Shown in pieces: positions 12,246 to 18,237 of a DNA stretch of 64,000 bases (the first letter of the stretch is position 1; each line of letters starts with the position of its first letter). The notes beneath the pieces were generated by a model. That model saw nothing but the letters and a program-made list of their open reading frames with translations. It was not told the DNA's origin and did no database searches. This DNA is from Stenotrophomonas acidaminiphila. Lineage in GTDB: Bacteria; Pseudomonadota; Gammaproteobacteria; Xanthomonadales; Xanthomonadaceae. The position numbers and the translations under genes were made by a program. The stretch covers positions 790,501 through 854,500 of the forward strand of contig CP019797.1 in NCBI GenBank assembly GCA_002951995.1, given 5' to 3'.

Positions 12246-12288
12246 AACCCCGCCGCCTGCCGCGCGGCGCATGCCCGGCGTGACCCCC

Positions 12289-12667
12289 ATGCGGGGCAAG
12301 CCCCGCATCTACGGAAAGCGGTTGCGGACCATGTAGGTGCCGGGCTCGCCCGGCACAGCCTTCCCCGACGCCCCCCATGCGGAGCAAGCCCCGCATCCAC
12401 GCAAGGCGGTTGCGGGCCATGTAGGTGCCGGGCTCGCCCGGCACACGCTTTCCCGCCACGCCTCAATACGGGGCAAGCCCCGCATCCACCCAAGGCGGCT
12501 GCGGACCATGTAGGTGCCGGGCTCGCCCGGCACACGCTTTCCCGCCACGCCCCCATGCGGGGCAAGCCCCGCATCCACCCAAGGCGGCTGCGGACCATGT
12601 AGGTGCCGGGCTCGCCCGGCACACGCTTTCCCGCCACGCCCCCATGCGGGGCAAGCCCCGCATCTAC
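12289..12667. repeat. tandem array of GTAG-type REP pairs (4.5 units)
   Basis: A single palindrome (12289-12312, ending CTAC) is followed by four paired units that start with GTAG at 12333, 12421, 12510 and 12599, a period of 88-89 bases. Each unit has GTAGGTGCCGGGCTCGCCCG, a spacer of about 25 bases, then ATGCGGGGCAAGCCCCGCAT. On the opposite strand this is the same pair type as at 5481. Three of the units end in CCAC instead of CTAC, and the last supplies the stop codon of ppk2. The array lies between convergent genes. Confidence 0.93.
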
Positions 12668-13443: not shown

Positions 13444-13654
13444 GGCGGTCTCCCTGTCCCGAAGCGCGAGCCTAGCGCAGCCGGGGCACGGTGAACCAGT
13501 CGGGCGGTCCTCGCGGCAACGACGGGTTGCCGGGCCCGCGGCGGAGCGCCCGGTGCCTTCCGGCCGCCGACCGGCTTTTCCCCGCGCATCGGTTTTCATG
13601 TAGTTTTGCCGCAGCGCCGGGCGTGGTGCCCGGCAATGGATCAGGAGCGGTGCG

Positions 13655-14794
13655 ATGGGGCTTGTCCAGGCAGCAAAGGGTGCGATCGGCGGCGTGCTGG
13701 CCGACCAGTGGAAGGACTTTTTCACGGTGCCGGACGGCCTGCCGGCGACGGCGGCGCTGTTCGCCGCGGTGCCGCGCGGGACCAATGCCGGCCGTGGTTC
13801 CAACACCGGCGCCTCGTCCAACATCATCAGCAACGGCTCGAAGATCGTCGTGCCCGAGGGCTACGGCCTGCTGCTGTTCCAGGACGGCGCCATCACCGGC
13901 TTCGTCGCCGAGCCGGGCGGTTACGAGTGGCGTTCGGACGATCCGAACTCGCAGTCGATCTTCGCCGGCGACGGCCTGGTCAGCACCTTCATCAAGCAGA
14001 GCTGGGAGCGCTTCAAGTTCGGCGGCCAGCCGGGTGCGCAGCAGGCGGCGTTCTTCGTCTCGCTCAAGGAACTGCCGGACAACCGCTTCGGCACCCAGTC
14101 CGAGATCTACTGGGACGACGGCTTCCTCAACACCCAGGTCGGCGCGGTCACGCGCGGCTCGTACACGCTGAAGATCGTCGACCCGATCCTGTTCGTGAAG
14201 AACTTCGTGCCGGCCAGTTACCTGCGCCCCGGCCAGGTGTTCGATTTCACTGACCTGGACAACGCCGCCGCCAGCCAGCTGTTCAACGAAGTGGTCGGCT
14301 CGCTCGCGCCGGCGTTCAGCCTGTACACGAACGATCCGGCCAAGGGCAACCGCATCACCAAACTGCAGCAGGACTCGATCGGCTTCGCGCAGAGCCTGTC
14401 GGCGGCGGTCGAGCAGGCTTACCACTGGCAGTCCGACCGCGGCCTGGCCATCGTCAAGACCGCCATCGTCTCGATCGAGTACGACGCCAACACCCGCGAG
14501 CTGCTCAAGACCGTGCAGCGCGCCGACGCGCTGTCCGGCGCGCGCGGCAATTCCAACCTGCAGGCCAGCGTCGCCCAGGGCATCCAGGCGGCCGGCGAGA
14601 ACGGCGGTGCGGCCGGCCTGGTCGGCGTCGGCATGGCCTCGGGCATGTTCGGCGTCGGCGGCATGCAGCAGCCGGTTGGGCCGGCGGCCGACGATCCGGT
14701 GGCCAGGCTGAAGAAGGCCAAGGAAATGCTGGATCTGGGGCTGATCACCCAGGCCGACTACGACGCGCTGAAAGCCAAGGCGCTGGGCCTGTAA
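13655..14794 (+). CDS. SPFH-domain protein with C-terminal SHOCT motif
   Basis: A 379-residue protein of the YdjI/YqiK-like virion-core SPFH group. The N-terminus (MGLVQAAKGAIGGVLADQWK) is typical; SSNIISNGSKIVVPEGYGLL leads into an SPFH (band 7) domain at about residues 55-250, followed by a glycine-rich linker and a SHOCT oligomerisation motif at 347-379 (DPVARLKKAKEMLDLGLITQ). No transmembrane segment is visible, so membrane contact probably depends on partners. SPFH proteins scaffold membrane microdomains; the Bacillus relative YdjI works with YdjG and YdjH to bind PspA to the membrane. Two co-directional genes follow, at 21 bases and then overlapping, making an operon. The ATG has GGAGCGG upstream. 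Confidence 0.85.
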   Translation: MGLVQAAKGAIGGVLADQWKDFFTVPDGLPATAALFAAVPRGTNAGRGSNTGASSNIISNGSKIVVPEGYGLLLFQDGAITGFVAEPGGYEWRSDDPNSQSIFAGDGLVSTFIKQSWERFKFGGQPGAQQAAFFVSLKELPDNRFGTQSEIYWDDGFLNTQVGAVTRGSYTLKIVDPILFVKNFVPASYLRPGQVFDFTDLDNAAASQLFNEVVGSLAPAFSLYTNDPAKGNRITKLQQDSIGFAQSLSAAVEQAYHWQSDRGLAIVKTAIVSIEYDANTRELLKTVQRADALSGARGNSNLQASVAQGIQAAGENGGAAGLVGVGMASGMFGVGGMQQPVGPAADDPVARLKKAKEMLDLGLITQADYDALKAKALGL

Positions 14795-14815
14795 CCGGCA
14801 GGACCCACGACGCCC

Positions 14816-16165
14816 ATGTCCGATCCCCGTAACGGCCCACCGCCGCTGCCCGGGTCCGCCGCCGCGCCGCCGCCCTTGCCGGCGGCGACGCTGGACGGGC
14901 CCGGCTCGCCGCGTGACGTGCCGCCGCCGCCCGGCGGTTTCCCGCTGGAGACCGCCGATCTGCCCCAGGCCATCCGCGACGAGGTCGAGGCGCCCGATCC
15001 GCTGGCCATCGATACCTCCGCCACCGAGCTGAAGGACGGCCTCAACCGCTGCCCCAAATGCGGTGCCACCGACATCCGCCCGCGGGCCGGCAGCGACGTG
15101 CTGGTGTGCCTGTACTGCCGCCACGAGTGGCATGGCGCGCGGGTGGAAGAGGCGTTCGGGCTGGGCGAGGCCATCGACCAGCTGCGCGGTACCGTCATCG
15201 CCTCCGGTGCGCGCGACATCGACGCCGATGCCGCGGTATTGATGACCTTCAAATGCAGCGGCTGCGGCGCCGAGGTCACCGTCAACACCCAGAGCAGCAT
15301 GACTGCGCGCTGCCACTGGTGCCGGCATGTGTTCGGCGTCAACGAGCAGATCGCCAACGGCGCGGTGCCCGACGCGCTGCTGCCGTTCCACATAAGGAAG
15401 GACGACGCGGTCGCGCGCATCCGCCAGTTCGTGGACAAGCGCCGCCTGTTCGCGCTCAAGGCGTTCAAGGAGCAGTTCACCCCGGAGAACGTGGTCGGCG
15501 TCTACCTGCCGTACATGATCGTCGACGGCAATGTCAGCGCGGCGGTGGCCGGCAGGGGCGAGATCAAGACCCGCGAGTACACCCGCGGCACCGAGAAGAA
15601 CCGGCAGACCTATTACGACGCCGACGTCTACCAGGTGGAGCGGCAGGTGGATTTCACCGTCGACGACCTGCCGCTGGAATCGTCCGCCGGGCGCGGCAAC
15701 CTGGACACGCGCACCAATACCAACAACATCATCAACGCCATCCTGCCGTTCGACACCAAGAACGCGCTGAAGTGGAATGCCTCCTACCTGGCCGGCTACA
15801 CCTCGGAAAAGCGCGACCTGGACGTGGAGAAGCTGCGCCCGCGGCTGGAGGACCAGCTGCTGTCGATCGCGCGTGCGCAGGTGCACCGCTCGGTAGCGCG
15901 CTACGACCGCGGCGTGCGCTGGGAGCAGGAGCAGCTGGAGGTCCACGGCACCCGCTGGGTATCGATGTACCTGCCGGTGTGGCTGTACTCCTACCACCAG
16001 CCCGGCAGCAACGGCGGCATGCTGCACTACATCGCGGTCAACGGCCGCACCGGCGAGACCATGGGCAGCGTGCCCGTGCAGCAGTGGAAACTGCTGCTGG
16101 CCGCGCTCACCGCCGGCACGATCATCGAAGCCCTCGCAATCGCATTCCTGGTGGCTGCCTCATGA
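14816..16165 (+). CDS. double zinc-ribbon protein with C-terminal membrane anchor
   Basis: A 449-residue protein with a Pro/Ala-rich N-terminus (1-60), a TFIIB-type zinc ribbon with cysteines 79, 82, 98 and 101 (CPKCGA ... CLYC), and a second four-cysteine ribbon with cysteines 147, 150, 166 and 169 (CSGCGAE ... CHWC). A long soluble region of unknown fold follows, then one hydrophobic helix at about 425-447. The architecture resembles YdjG of Bacillus subtilis, which anchors an SPFH protein at the membrane. It lies 21 bases after the SPFH gene and overlaps the next gene as ATGA. The family has no established enzymatic activity. Confidence 0.82.
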   Translation: MSDPRNGPPPLPGSAAAPPPLPAATLDGPGSPRDVPPPPGGFPLETADLPQAIRDEVEAPDPLAIDTSATELKDGLNRCPKCGATDIRPRAGSDVLVCLYCRHEWHGARVEEAFGLGEAIDQLRGTVIASGARDIDADAAVLMTFKCSGCGAEVTVNTQSSMTARCHWCRHVFGVNEQIANGAVPDALLPFHIRKDDAVARIRQFVDKRRLFALKAFKEQFTPENVVGVYLPYMIVDGNVSAAVAGRGEIKTREYTRGTEKNRQTYYDADVYQVERQVDFTVDDLPLESSAGRGNLDTRTNTNNIINAILPFDTKNALKWNASYLAGYTSEKRDLDVEKLRPRLEDQLLSIARAQVHRSVARYDRGVRWEQEQLEVHGTRWVSMYLPVWLYSYHQPGSNGGMLHYIAVNGRTGETMGSVPVQQWKLLLAALTAGTIIEALAIAFLVAAS

Positions 16166-16410
16166 GCGACGACAGTGGACTCTGGTTGCTGGCCGCAGGC
16201 CCGGCCGGCGCGACCGCGTTGTACTGGGCCCTGTACCGGTACTACCGCAATACCGACAAATCGCATGGCTTCGAGCACGAGACCGAGATCGTGGCCAAGC
16301 CGGTGACCGGCTCGGAGCGCAAGGTCGGCGAGGTGAAGGGCACCCAGCAGCGCCGTATCGACGGCGACAACGTCGGCGATTACCGGCGCCGGGTGAAACG
16401 CCTGCGCTGA
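16162..16410 (+). CDS. small single-helix membrane protein, third gene of the SPFH operon
   Basis: An 82-residue protein with one membrane helix near residues 7-27 (WLLAAGPAGATALYWALYRY) and a charged cytoplasmic tail rich in Lys and Arg (ending YRRRVKRLR). It starts with ATG overlapping the upstream stop (ATGA), so it is coupled to the zinc-ribbon gene. I do not recognise its family. By position and size it may be a cofactor of the zinc-ribbon/SPFH complex. It ends 59 bases before a REP pair shared with the convergent OGT-like gene. Confidence 0.7.
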   Translation: MSDDSGLWLLAAGPAGATALYWALYRYYRNTDKSHGFEHETEIVAKPVTGSERKVGEVKGTQQRRIDGDNVGDYRRRVKRLR

Positions 16411-16468
16411 GCCTCCGCGCGTGGGTGCGGGGCCCGCATGGCGCATCGCCTGCGCTGGATCCCCACCC

Positions 16469-16537
16469 GTAGGTGCAGGGCTTGCCCTGCACGGGCTCTC
16501 GCGGCCATGCCCCGTGCGGGGCAAGCCCCGCACCTAC
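16469..16537. repeat. GTAG-type REP pair
   Basis: An inverted pair: GTAGGTGCAGGGCTTGCCCT at the left, a spacer with CTCTCGCGGCCATGCCC, and GTGCGGGGCAAGCCCCGCAC ending in CTAC at 16534-16537. It lies between convergent genes. The reverse complement of its right end, GTAG, contains the TAG stop codon of the minus-strand gene at 16534. Confidence 0.9.
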
Positions 16538-18237
16538 GGGCGTTGTCGCAGATCCTTCAACAGCGCGGCGAAATCACGCGCGAAGCCGGCCATGTCGAAC
16601 AGGCCGGCATCGCGGCGGGCCGCGGCCAGGCGTTGGCGCAGGCCGGCCAGCGCGGCCGGGTCGTTGCCCAGCCGGATCGCAGTGGCGACGAAGGCCGCAT
16701 CGTCGGCGGCGTTCATCTCGTCCAGCCCAAGGTGGTGGTTGAGGCTGCCGGCCACGCGCGCGGCGAAGGTGTGGCCGGGCGTGGTCAACACCGGGCAACC
16801 GGCCCACAGCGCGTCGGAGGCGGTGGTGTGGGCGTTGTAGGGATGGGTGTCGAGGAACAGGTCGGCATGCCGGTAGCGTGCCAGGTAGTGCGGGTGCGGC
16901 AGCTTGGGCATGAACACCAGGCGCGACGGATCGATGCCCTGCCGCTGCGCGACCTCGCGCAGGCGCTGGTCGGCCAGGCCCGGCCCCGACAGCAGCCACA
17001 GCACGCTGCCGGGGACCCCACGCAGCACCTCCAGCAGGCGCGCGACGCTGCGCGGGTTGAGCTTGTAGCTGTTGTTGAAGCAGCAGAACACGACGCCGCC
17101 GCCGTTGCCGTCGCGCCCGGGCAGGCCGCAGTCGCCGCGCGGCGGTGGCGCCTCGACCACGCGGGTGTTGTCCGAGGGCTGGAACGCGCGCGGCAGCCGC
17201 AGCACCTTTTCGCTGAACGCCGGCTCCAGTGCCGGCGGCAACACGAACGCGTCGGCCAGCACGTAATCGATCCACGGCGCGCCCGAGGTGCCGGGGTAGG
17301 CCAGCCAGTTGACCTGCAGCGGCGCCGGCCGCATCGCCAGCACTTCCGGGGTGCCGCCGCCACCCCAGCCGCGCAGGTCGAACAGCACGTCGATGCCGGC
17401 CTCGCGGATACGCGCGGCGATGGCCGCGTGCGGCATGCCATCGACCGCGTGCAGGGTGTGGGCCGCCGCCAGCAGGCGCTGGCGGATGCGGCTGCCGTCG
17501 TCGCCGTTGAGCGCGAACAGATGTACCTGCAGCCCGGCGTCGGTGCGCAGCTGCTCGAACAGCGCCACGGTCAGCAGCCCGGTGGGGTGCGCGCCGAAGC
17601 CATTGGAAAGGAAGCCCACCCGCAGCGGGCCGTCGGTGCGCAACTGCGCCGGTGGCAGCCGCGGGGTGGACGCGGCGATCACCTGTGCGCGCTGGCGGGC
17701 ACAGGCCAGCTGCTCGGCGGCGCTGGCGTCCTCGCTGAGGAAGGCGAACGGCTCCACCGCCGGGTTGCCCTGCGCCACCGCGCCGCGCACCTGCTGCGAC
17801 AGCGCCTCCAGCCCGCGCCAGTCGCACAGCCGCCGTTGCCAGTTCAGGCGCTGCGCGGCCACATAGGGCTCGTCCGGGAGCAGTGCATGGGCGCGGCGAT
17901 AGGCATCGGCGGCGGCCTCGGGCTGGCCGGCGTCCTCCAGCGCATGGCCCAGCCACAGCGCGATGCCGGGGTGCCCGGGAACCTGTCGCGAGGCGTGGCG
18001 CAGCAGGTTGGCCGCCTCCTCGTGGCGGCCCTGCATCCAGCGCGCGCGTCCCAGCCGGGCCAATGCTTCGGGGTGGTCATGGCGCAACTGCAGCGCGCGC
18101 TGCGCGGCGCGTTCGCCGGCGGCCACGTCGCCGGCGCCCAGCTCGGCGTCGGCCAGCATCACCCAGGCGATGAAGTCGGCCGGCTGGCGCTGTACCGCGC
18201 TGCGCAGGTGCTGGCGTTCGTCGTGCGGGACATTCAT
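16534..18237 (-). CDS. O-GlcNAc transferase-like TPR glycosyltransferase (SPINDLY family)
   Basis: A 567-residue protein nearly the same length as the Xanthomonas campestris OGT homologue of known structure. Residues 1 to about 135 are tetratricopeptide repeats; the rest is a two-lobed GT41 catalytic region. Visible key residues are His217 in SNGFGAHPTG, matching the conserved catalytic-site histidine of the family, and Lys392 in FNNSYKLNPRS, matching the lysine that contacts the UDP phosphate. HTTASDALWAGCPVLTTPG is the sugar-nucleotide loop. The natural substrate and donor of bacterial members are not firmly known. I chose the ATG at 18237; an open frame continues upstream to 18648 but is shadow of prfA. 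Downstream of prfA it takes the place that prmC has in E. coli. The stop comes from a REP element. Confidence 0.9.
   Translation of the reverse strand: MNVPHDERQHLRSAVQRQPADFIAWVMLADAELGAGDVAAGERAAQRALQLRHDHPEALARLGRARWMQGRHEEAANLLRHASRQVPGHPGIALWLGHALEDAGQPEAAADAYRRAHALLPDEPYVAAQRLNWQRRLCDWRGLEALSQQVRGAVAQGNPAVEPFAFLSEDASAAEQLACARQRAQVIAASTPRLPPAQLRTDGPLRVGFLSNGFGAHPTGLLTVALFEQLRTDAGLQVHLFALNGDDGSRIRQRLLAAAHTLHAVDGMPHAAIAARIREAGIDVLFDLRGWGGGGTPEVLAMRPAPLQVNWLAYPGTSGAPWIDYVLADAFVLPPALEPAFSEKVLRLPRAFQPSDNTRVVEAPPPRGDCGLPGRDGNGGGVVFCCFNNSYKLNPRSVARLLEVLRGVPGSVLWLLSGPGLADQRLREVAQRQGIDPSRLVFMPKLPHPHYLARYRHADLFLDTHPYNAHTTASDALWAGCPVLTTPGHTFAARVAGSLNHHLGLDEMNAADDAAFVATAIRLGNDPAALAGLRQRLAAARRDAGLFDMAGFARDFAALLKDLRQRP

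Follow-up and report, generated by a model that had tools for sequence, protein, structure and literature searches.

We examined a three-gene operon of Stenotrophomonas acidaminiphila that lies in a stretch of 64,000 nucleotides (hereafter the window; assembly GCA_002951995.1, contig CP019797.1, positions 790,501 to 854,500 of the forward strand), and plain coordinates below are positions of the window. The first two products, P1 and P2, are homologues of Bacillus YdjI and YdjG, respectively, and in the papers compared here these two proteins and YdjH are treated as the membrane platform of PspA; no recognisable PspA is encoded in the genome examined here. P1 and P2 are separated by 21 bases and P2 and P3 overlap by 4 bases, and the coordinates, strand and spacing in the initial annotation of this DNA were correct:

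13655-14794, + strand: P1, 379 amino acids, SPFH/Band 7 protein with a SHOCT-like tail and without a clear membrane helix, YdjI-like
14816-16165, + strand: P2, 449 amino acids, double zinc-ribbon membrane protein of the YdjG family
16162-16410, + strand: P3, 82 amino acids, small single-helix protein

All three genes were called by codon scoring, and the ratio of nonsynonymous to synonymous substitution rates (dN/dS) against one relative (L085) was 0.10 for P1, 0.11 for P2 and 0.34 for P3. These low values, together with co-occurrence in other genomes (see below), confirm that the three are genuine genes and more than chance. Homologues at an E value of 0.001 or better made up 7862 of the 8000 scored candidates for P1 and 6304 of the 7997 for P2, and the closest named P2 relative among the best 120 listed was from S. 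acidaminiphila (94% identity).

Relationship of the three proteins to YdjI, YdjG and YdjH

The following features were located in P2:

15050..15118, + strand: first zinc ribbon (C79, C82, C98, C101)
15254..15322, + strand: second zinc ribbon (C147, C150, C166, C169)
15368..16075, + strand: central domain common to YdjG (about residues 185-420)
16091..16153, + strand: C-terminal membrane helix (about residues 426-446, from hydropathy; helix 423-448 in a low-confidence model)

We assign P2 to the YdjG family, with which the ribbons, the central domain and the C-terminal helix are all matched. The eight cysteines of P2 (79/82/98/101 and 147/150/166/169) are those of the two ribbons, with no others, and lie exactly where the initial annotation had placed them; hydropathy peaks near the C-terminus (best 19-residue mean 2.17 at 428), in agreement with the helix named there. 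In an alignment of 28 family members, C98, C101 and all four cysteines of the second ribbon were invariant and C79 and C82 were conserved at 90% or more, while the invariant positions of the central domain were P185, P190, F191, G228, P232, D237, P311, G327, P387, W389, Y393, N409, G413, G417 and P420. For comparison we used Bacillus loci of the pspA-ydjGHI type, which a pattern derived from a published primer located in seven species other than B. subtilis itself. BLASTP of P2 against Bacillus YdjG gave 94.4 bits (E = 7e-26, 21% identity over 371 columns), which, with the 28-sequence alignment, bears out the likeness to YdjG suggested at the outset. The Bacillus protein has 341 amino acids, two four-cysteine ribbons, matching central motifs and a C-terminal helix, and the cysteines of Bacillus spizizenii YdjG (7/10/25/28 and 56/59/74/77) aligned with those of P2. 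According to passages of PMC11237479, YdjG has two ribbons, then an NTF2-like domain related to YpeB, and lastly a helix. What was initially taken as novel in P2, its second ribbon and its central domain, thus belongs to the family at large, because YdjG carries both. The AlphaFold model of P2 was of low confidence (predicted local distance difference test score, pLDDT, 53.1) and had no PDB match at E ≤ 0.001, a quality too low to bear on the NTF2-like fold.

The ribbons raise the question of whether the system is instead a membrane-tethered regulator, in which TFIIB-like ribbons of P2 would bind nucleic acid under the control of P1. NCBI names many of the listed P2 relatives TFIIB-type zinc ribbon proteins, and a passage of PMC9239133 describes the ribbon domain of YdjG as a known binder of DNA. 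P2 ends, however, in a membrane anchor and no other DNA-binding domain was matched, and YdjG is needed for membrane recruitment in B. subtilis according to a section of PMC8581546. We therefore give the regulatory reading little chance.

P1 carries two recognisable regions:

13826..14554, + strand: SPFH region (about residues 58-300; structure matches cover 51-301, Band_7_1 match 55-186)
14705..14785, + strand: SHOCT-like tail (residues 351-377; PF09851 below cut-off; helix pair in the model)

The Pfam score for Band_7_1 was marginal (23.8 versus a cut-off of 24 by hmmscan; 25.5 with neighbours in the genome scan), and the SPFH fold was established through an intermediate sequence and structure matches. 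The intermediate is an SPFH protein encoded on an Enterococcus gallinarum plasmid, with 144.9 bits to P1 and 84.6 to YdjI. The AlphaFold model of P1 was likewise of low confidence (pLDDT 46.9); of its 33 PDB matches at E ≤ 0.001, SPFH protein entries supplied 31 and major vault protein the other 2, and it resembled HflKC, prohibitin and stomatin. These results support homology of P1 to Bacillus YdjI, as had been proposed from the sequence at first reading. The SPFH domain without a membrane helix stood as well, given that no 19-residue window had a mean hydropathy above 1.41, and P1 contained no cysteine and no C-terminal zinc ribbon of the YdjI kind. The SHOCT tail named in the initial annotation was matched at the right place, but at 22.9 bits, below the cut-off of 27. 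Among the P1 relatives, a protein of 623 amino acids (P0121) had a summed score above those ranked next, which may reflect a tandem SPFH architecture or a fault in the assembly. In Monoglobus (L163:3999-6251), a P1-type SPFH gene adjoins a TIM44-like gene, with no YdjG annotated in the stretch examined.

P3 has one hydrophobic stretch and no cysteine:

16177..16233, + strand: weak membrane helix of P3 (residues 6-24; hydropathy mean 1.22)

The third protein was indeed short with a single helix, although that helix is weak (best 19-residue mean 1.22 at residue 6). Twenty-five positions were invariant in 21 P3 sequences. They include the YRNTDKS stretch, which follows the helix and belongs to a conserved motif, YRYYRNTDKSHxFExET; the basic stretch following the helix suggests a cytosolic tail. 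P3 had no Pfam match and no TPM domain, whereas Bacillus YdjH is a TPM-domain protein (PF04536, 5.6e-21), and no similarity between the two was detected. A resemblance by eye of the P3 tail to the cytosolic tail of TPM proteins was dropped as a sign of kinship with YdjH, as hhalign of 22 P3 against 7 YdjH tails returned a probability of 0.2% over 7 aligned columns. The idea of a YdjH-like third gene therefore did not hold: by sequence P3 is not a YdjH and occupies its place only, the position being given by the SPFH-YdjG-TPM gene order on the Enterococcus plasmid.

Conservation of the operon and absence of PspA

We investigated the distribution of the three genes in 149 genomes of the family and 398 genomes of the phylum. 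Orthologues of P1 (at least 82% identity; broken in G474) and of P2 (at least 72%) occurred in the same 38 family genomes, and P3 was found in all 38 and in five more in which P1 and P2 were absent or in pieces; wherever the P3 family was found here, P1-P2 or remnants of them accompanied it. The count of orthologues leaves out 16 other P2 matches (11 distant ones of full-length type, 1 piece and 4 short, weak ones). In the phylum sample, orthologues of all three shared the same 6 of the 398 genomes, with 5 weak matches to P1, 2 to P3 and 39 distant ones to P2 in addition. In two genomes (G458 C1:2605422-2605729 and G510 C1:198926-199233) an N-terminal piece of P1 overlaps most of P3, an arrangement that loss of the operon's central part would produce.

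Of the 39 orthologue loci, 24 were examined with larger surroundings, 23 of them from the family and 1 from the order. P2 and P3 stood together with a same-strand SPFH gene at 23 of these 24, and at the remaining one (L099) P2 and P3 had been missed by the gene caller and were placed there by homology searches. Hence the neighbourhood survey that the initial annotation had proposed found the genes kept together. P2 and P3 overlapped, as called, in 21 of the 23 loci; the gene caller misplaces some starts, giving long P1-P2 gaps, and these gaps played no part in the evidence. Two related genes lie between P1 and P2 in three genomes of a single genus (L104-L106); the intervening genes have an N-terminal CxxC and, in the two of the six that were scanned, an AIM24 match by Pfam. 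Counterparts of the three genes also occurred on an unplaced contig of 72% G+C (MT835641, L136; filed as Bacteriophage sp., an unverified label), with P1 at 60% identity, P2 at 444 bits and a P3-like frame carrying YRYYRNRDKRHEFEKKT, which indicates that P1-P2-P3 may exist outside Xanthomonadales.

The surroundings of the operon varied. In S. acidaminiphila both flanking genes are on the - strand (polyphosphate kinase 2 upstream and TPR/glycosyltransferase 41 downstream). Any flanking gene cluster was shared by 39 of the 276 pairs of loci, so that a common ancestral site is possible for some of them. The cluster seen most often, a methyltransferase family gene, was present at 6 of the 24. These figures bear on two other explanations. 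First, the operon may encode a chaperone that, like prohibitin or HflKC, acts in the assembly or quality control of particular inner-membrane complexes, P3 being the subunit that faces the substrate. The resemblance of the P1 model to HflKC, prohibitin and stomatin would fit such a role, and a chaperone-like function in assembly has been proposed for Band 7 proteins with TPM partners (in a portion of PMC11237479). However, no flanking cluster occurred in more than 6 of the 24 loci, so that no client is marked by the neighbourhood, where most genes lacked a family identification, and we regard a chaperone as rather unlikely. Second, the patchy presence (38 of 149), the mostly different neighbours and the remnants in five more genomes are what would be expected of an accessory system, for example one for anti-phage defence. 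Yet PADLOC gave one weak match only (E = 0.011), and a single relative was present among 20 IMG/VR pattern matches, with none in two further scans; on these searches, which did not extend to defence neighbourhoods, we take a defence system to be highly improbable.

The PspA family (PF04012) had no match anywhere in the genome of the strain, although the same search was positive in 9 of 14 control genomes. No PspA gene adjoins the operon, in agreement with what was noted at first, and PspA was absent from all six genomes of the genus in the sample, this one included. In the family sample, 55 of the 149 genomes encoded a PspA family protein: 18 of the 38 carriers of P1-P2-P3 as against 37 of the 111 others (Fisher p = 0.17), leaving 20 carriers without one. 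The P1-P2-P3 type therefore does not require PspA and shows no clear association with it. A distant YdjG-family gene was present in 11 family genomes, none of which had the P1-P2-P3 type (hypergeometric p = 0.034, kinship uncorrected). Eight of these 11 encoded PspA, compared with 47 of the 138 others (Fisher p = 0.019, kinship uncorrected), so that the distant type, among whose carriers PspA is commoner, may still be linked to it in function.

The initial annotation had supposed a client protein that was different or encoded elsewhere; this can now be narrowed, as without a recognisable PspA in the genome any client there may be must be something else than such a protein. A PspA-like or ESCRT-III-like client might still be served if its sequence had diverged beyond the reach of Pfam in this genome, or if, in other species, its gene lay elsewhere. 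Such a client would agree with the recruitment of PspA by YdjI in B. subtilis (reported in a section of PMC8581546) and with the PspA family proteins of 18 of the 38 carriers and of 8 of the 11 genomes with the distant type. We nevertheless consider it quite unlikely, given the search with positive controls, the six genomes of the genus without PspA and the lack of significant enrichment among carriers.

The leader upstream of P1

The leader of P1 contains three elements:

13599..13604, + strand: TGTAGT, a -10-like box (consensus of relatives TATAGT), in register with the TATAGT-like box in an alignment of 35 leaders; putative promoter element
13616..13634, + strand: palindrome/hairpin GCCGGGC-GTGGT-GCCCGGC, lying after the -10-like box and before the ribosome binding site
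13643..13647, + strand: AGGAG, likely ribosome binding site of P1, from sequence

The same layout was conserved in 35 leaders from 34 genomes, with a TATAGT-like box about 50 bases before the start, then a palindrome and then a ribosome binding site. These leaders came from 34 of the 39 carriers (four were not included and L054 was not located), and L114, a duplicate, and L136, from another source, were left out; the leader of the latter (MT835641) was not conserved by eye. A consensus sigma-70 scan of the leader passed no -35/-10 pair. For a SigmaE-type promoter upstream of P1, the best matches in 24 leaders were weak (6-9 of 11 positions) and scattered in place, and the aligned TATAGT-like box was preferred.

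The palindrome of the S. acidaminiphila leader, with its context, folds at -16.7 kcal/mol. Across the 35 leaders, 80.9% of the 267 cells of an eight-pair stem paired, versus 26.7-58.8% when the partner was slid by 1-3 columns, and 19 stem cells were changed on both sides, versus 3-7 in slid alignments and a mean of 8.6 in shuffles, none of 500 being as high. Examples of the stems are GGCCGGTA-GCG-TACCGGCC (L056), CAGGCA-TGG-TGCCTG (L004) and ATGGGTA-CGG-TACCCAT (L034). Several results weigh against a hairpin: RNAalifold kept four pairs only, with a covariation term of -0.07; the stem pairs with a double change numbered 4, a value reached by 323 of the 500 shuffles and exceeded by slides (up to 5); and L048 is without the element, L053, L107 and some others fold poorly or differently, and the mean z was -1.2 versus simple shuffles. 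Part of the conservation lies in the leader sequence itself, so that either an RNA hairpin or a dyad DNA operator could be involved; we favour the hairpin.

Outside the operon and its leader, four G+C-rich copies resembling repetitive extragenic palindromic (REP) elements lie downstream of the polyphosphate kinase 2 gene (12284-12667, spacing of 88-89 nucleotides), and an inverted repeat follows P3 at 16466-16540.

A proposed membrane scaffold and its known relatives

By analogy with Bacillus, P1-P2-P3 probably constitute a YdjI/YdjG-type SPFH scaffold at the inner membrane that is independent of PspA and would serve in envelope stress. P1 would form SPFH oligomers on the cytosolic face of the membrane. 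P1 itself lacks a membrane anchor, so it would be held there by tail-anchored P2 and probably also by P3 as a second anchor; the ribbons and central domain of P2 may act as a docking platform, and the SHOCT-like tail of P1 may aid assembly or docking. The scaffold would then organise or stabilise the membrane or its protein complexes under envelope stress, and in the absence of PspA it may itself be the working part or serve another client. We infer these interactions, the topology and the stress role, as well as the role of the leader palindrome, from the comparisons described here.

Several observations weigh against this proposal. The studied role of YdjI is PspA recruitment, and PspA family proteins are encoded by nearly half of the carriers (18 of 38) and by most genomes with the distant type. 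Partners vary, as distant relatives sit with TelA, XpaC-like or DUF2927 genes. The genome has four other Band 7 genes, and both AlphaFold models are poor. It also has two TPM-domain matches side by side, far from the operon (G000 C1:2903870-2905056), which speaks against a simple replacement of YdjH by P3, as a YdjH-like part could come from there. A stronger version, in which the scaffold is self-sufficient without PspA, P3 has replaced YdjH, and the unit brings its own promoter and an expression-setting leader hairpin wherever it is located, is offered tentatively, as something we would sooner doubt than assert.

Set against the literature compared, what is new is the PspA-free setting, seen here and in 19 other carriers, together with P3, the leader element and the contexts with TelA and AIM24, although we do not claim their absence from print. 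A version in species lacking a recognisable PspA would separate the function of the SPFH platform from that of PspA, and P3 and the leader element provide specific handles for testing whether the platform acts in its own right.

Among 29 loci of distant relatives, a same-strand SPFH gene was present in 25 and directly adjacent in 20, with a TelA cluster in 10, an XpaC-like cluster in 7 and DUF2927 in 8 (one member of each scanned with Pfam), and phmmer with the Bacillus proteins found no PspA or TPM within up to about 6 kb on each side. The TelA loci all belong to one family of another class (f55), where genes for XpaC-like, TelA (toxic anion resistance) and DUF2927 proteins stand, in this order and with varying completeness, ahead of the SPFH-YdjG pair (L065, L066, L069, L071, L072, L073, L076, L078, L081 and L082), and this link could bear on the role of TelA. 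There too the SPFH gene adjoins or lies near a YdjG-family gene, but the SPFH protein is of the YdjI type with a GYF_2 tail (one scanned, L071), the partners are TelA and XpaC-like proteins, and P3 is missing. In two Vibrio plasmid records (L140 and L147), a TIR-domain gene encoded on the other strand lies no more than about 4 kb from an SPFH-YdjG pair.

The Enterococcus plasmid pK205-4a-A (NZ_CP116511; L135) has the same gene order as the operon and a P1-type SPFH protein with a similar N-terminus, and no PspA is annotated within the 11 kb examined; unlike here, its third gene encodes a TPM-domain protein of 268 amino acids and its SPFH protein ends in zinc ribbons. In B. subtilis, as sections of PMC8581546 report, YdjI is predicted to lack a membrane helix, foci of YdjI and PspA depend on YdjG and YdjH, YdjH contacts YdjI and PspA in two-hybrid assays, and loss of YdjI alters membrane fluidity. 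The operon differs from pspA-ydjGHI in gene order, in the lack of pspA and in having P3 in place of the TPM protein YdjH; moreover, P1 ends in a SHOCT-like tail where YdjI ends in a zinc ribbon, and P2 has an extra proline-rich N-terminus. Compared through the seven other Bacillus species, the two nevertheless share an SPFH protein lacking a membrane helix together with a YdjG-family protein of two ribbons, a central domain and a C-terminal helix.

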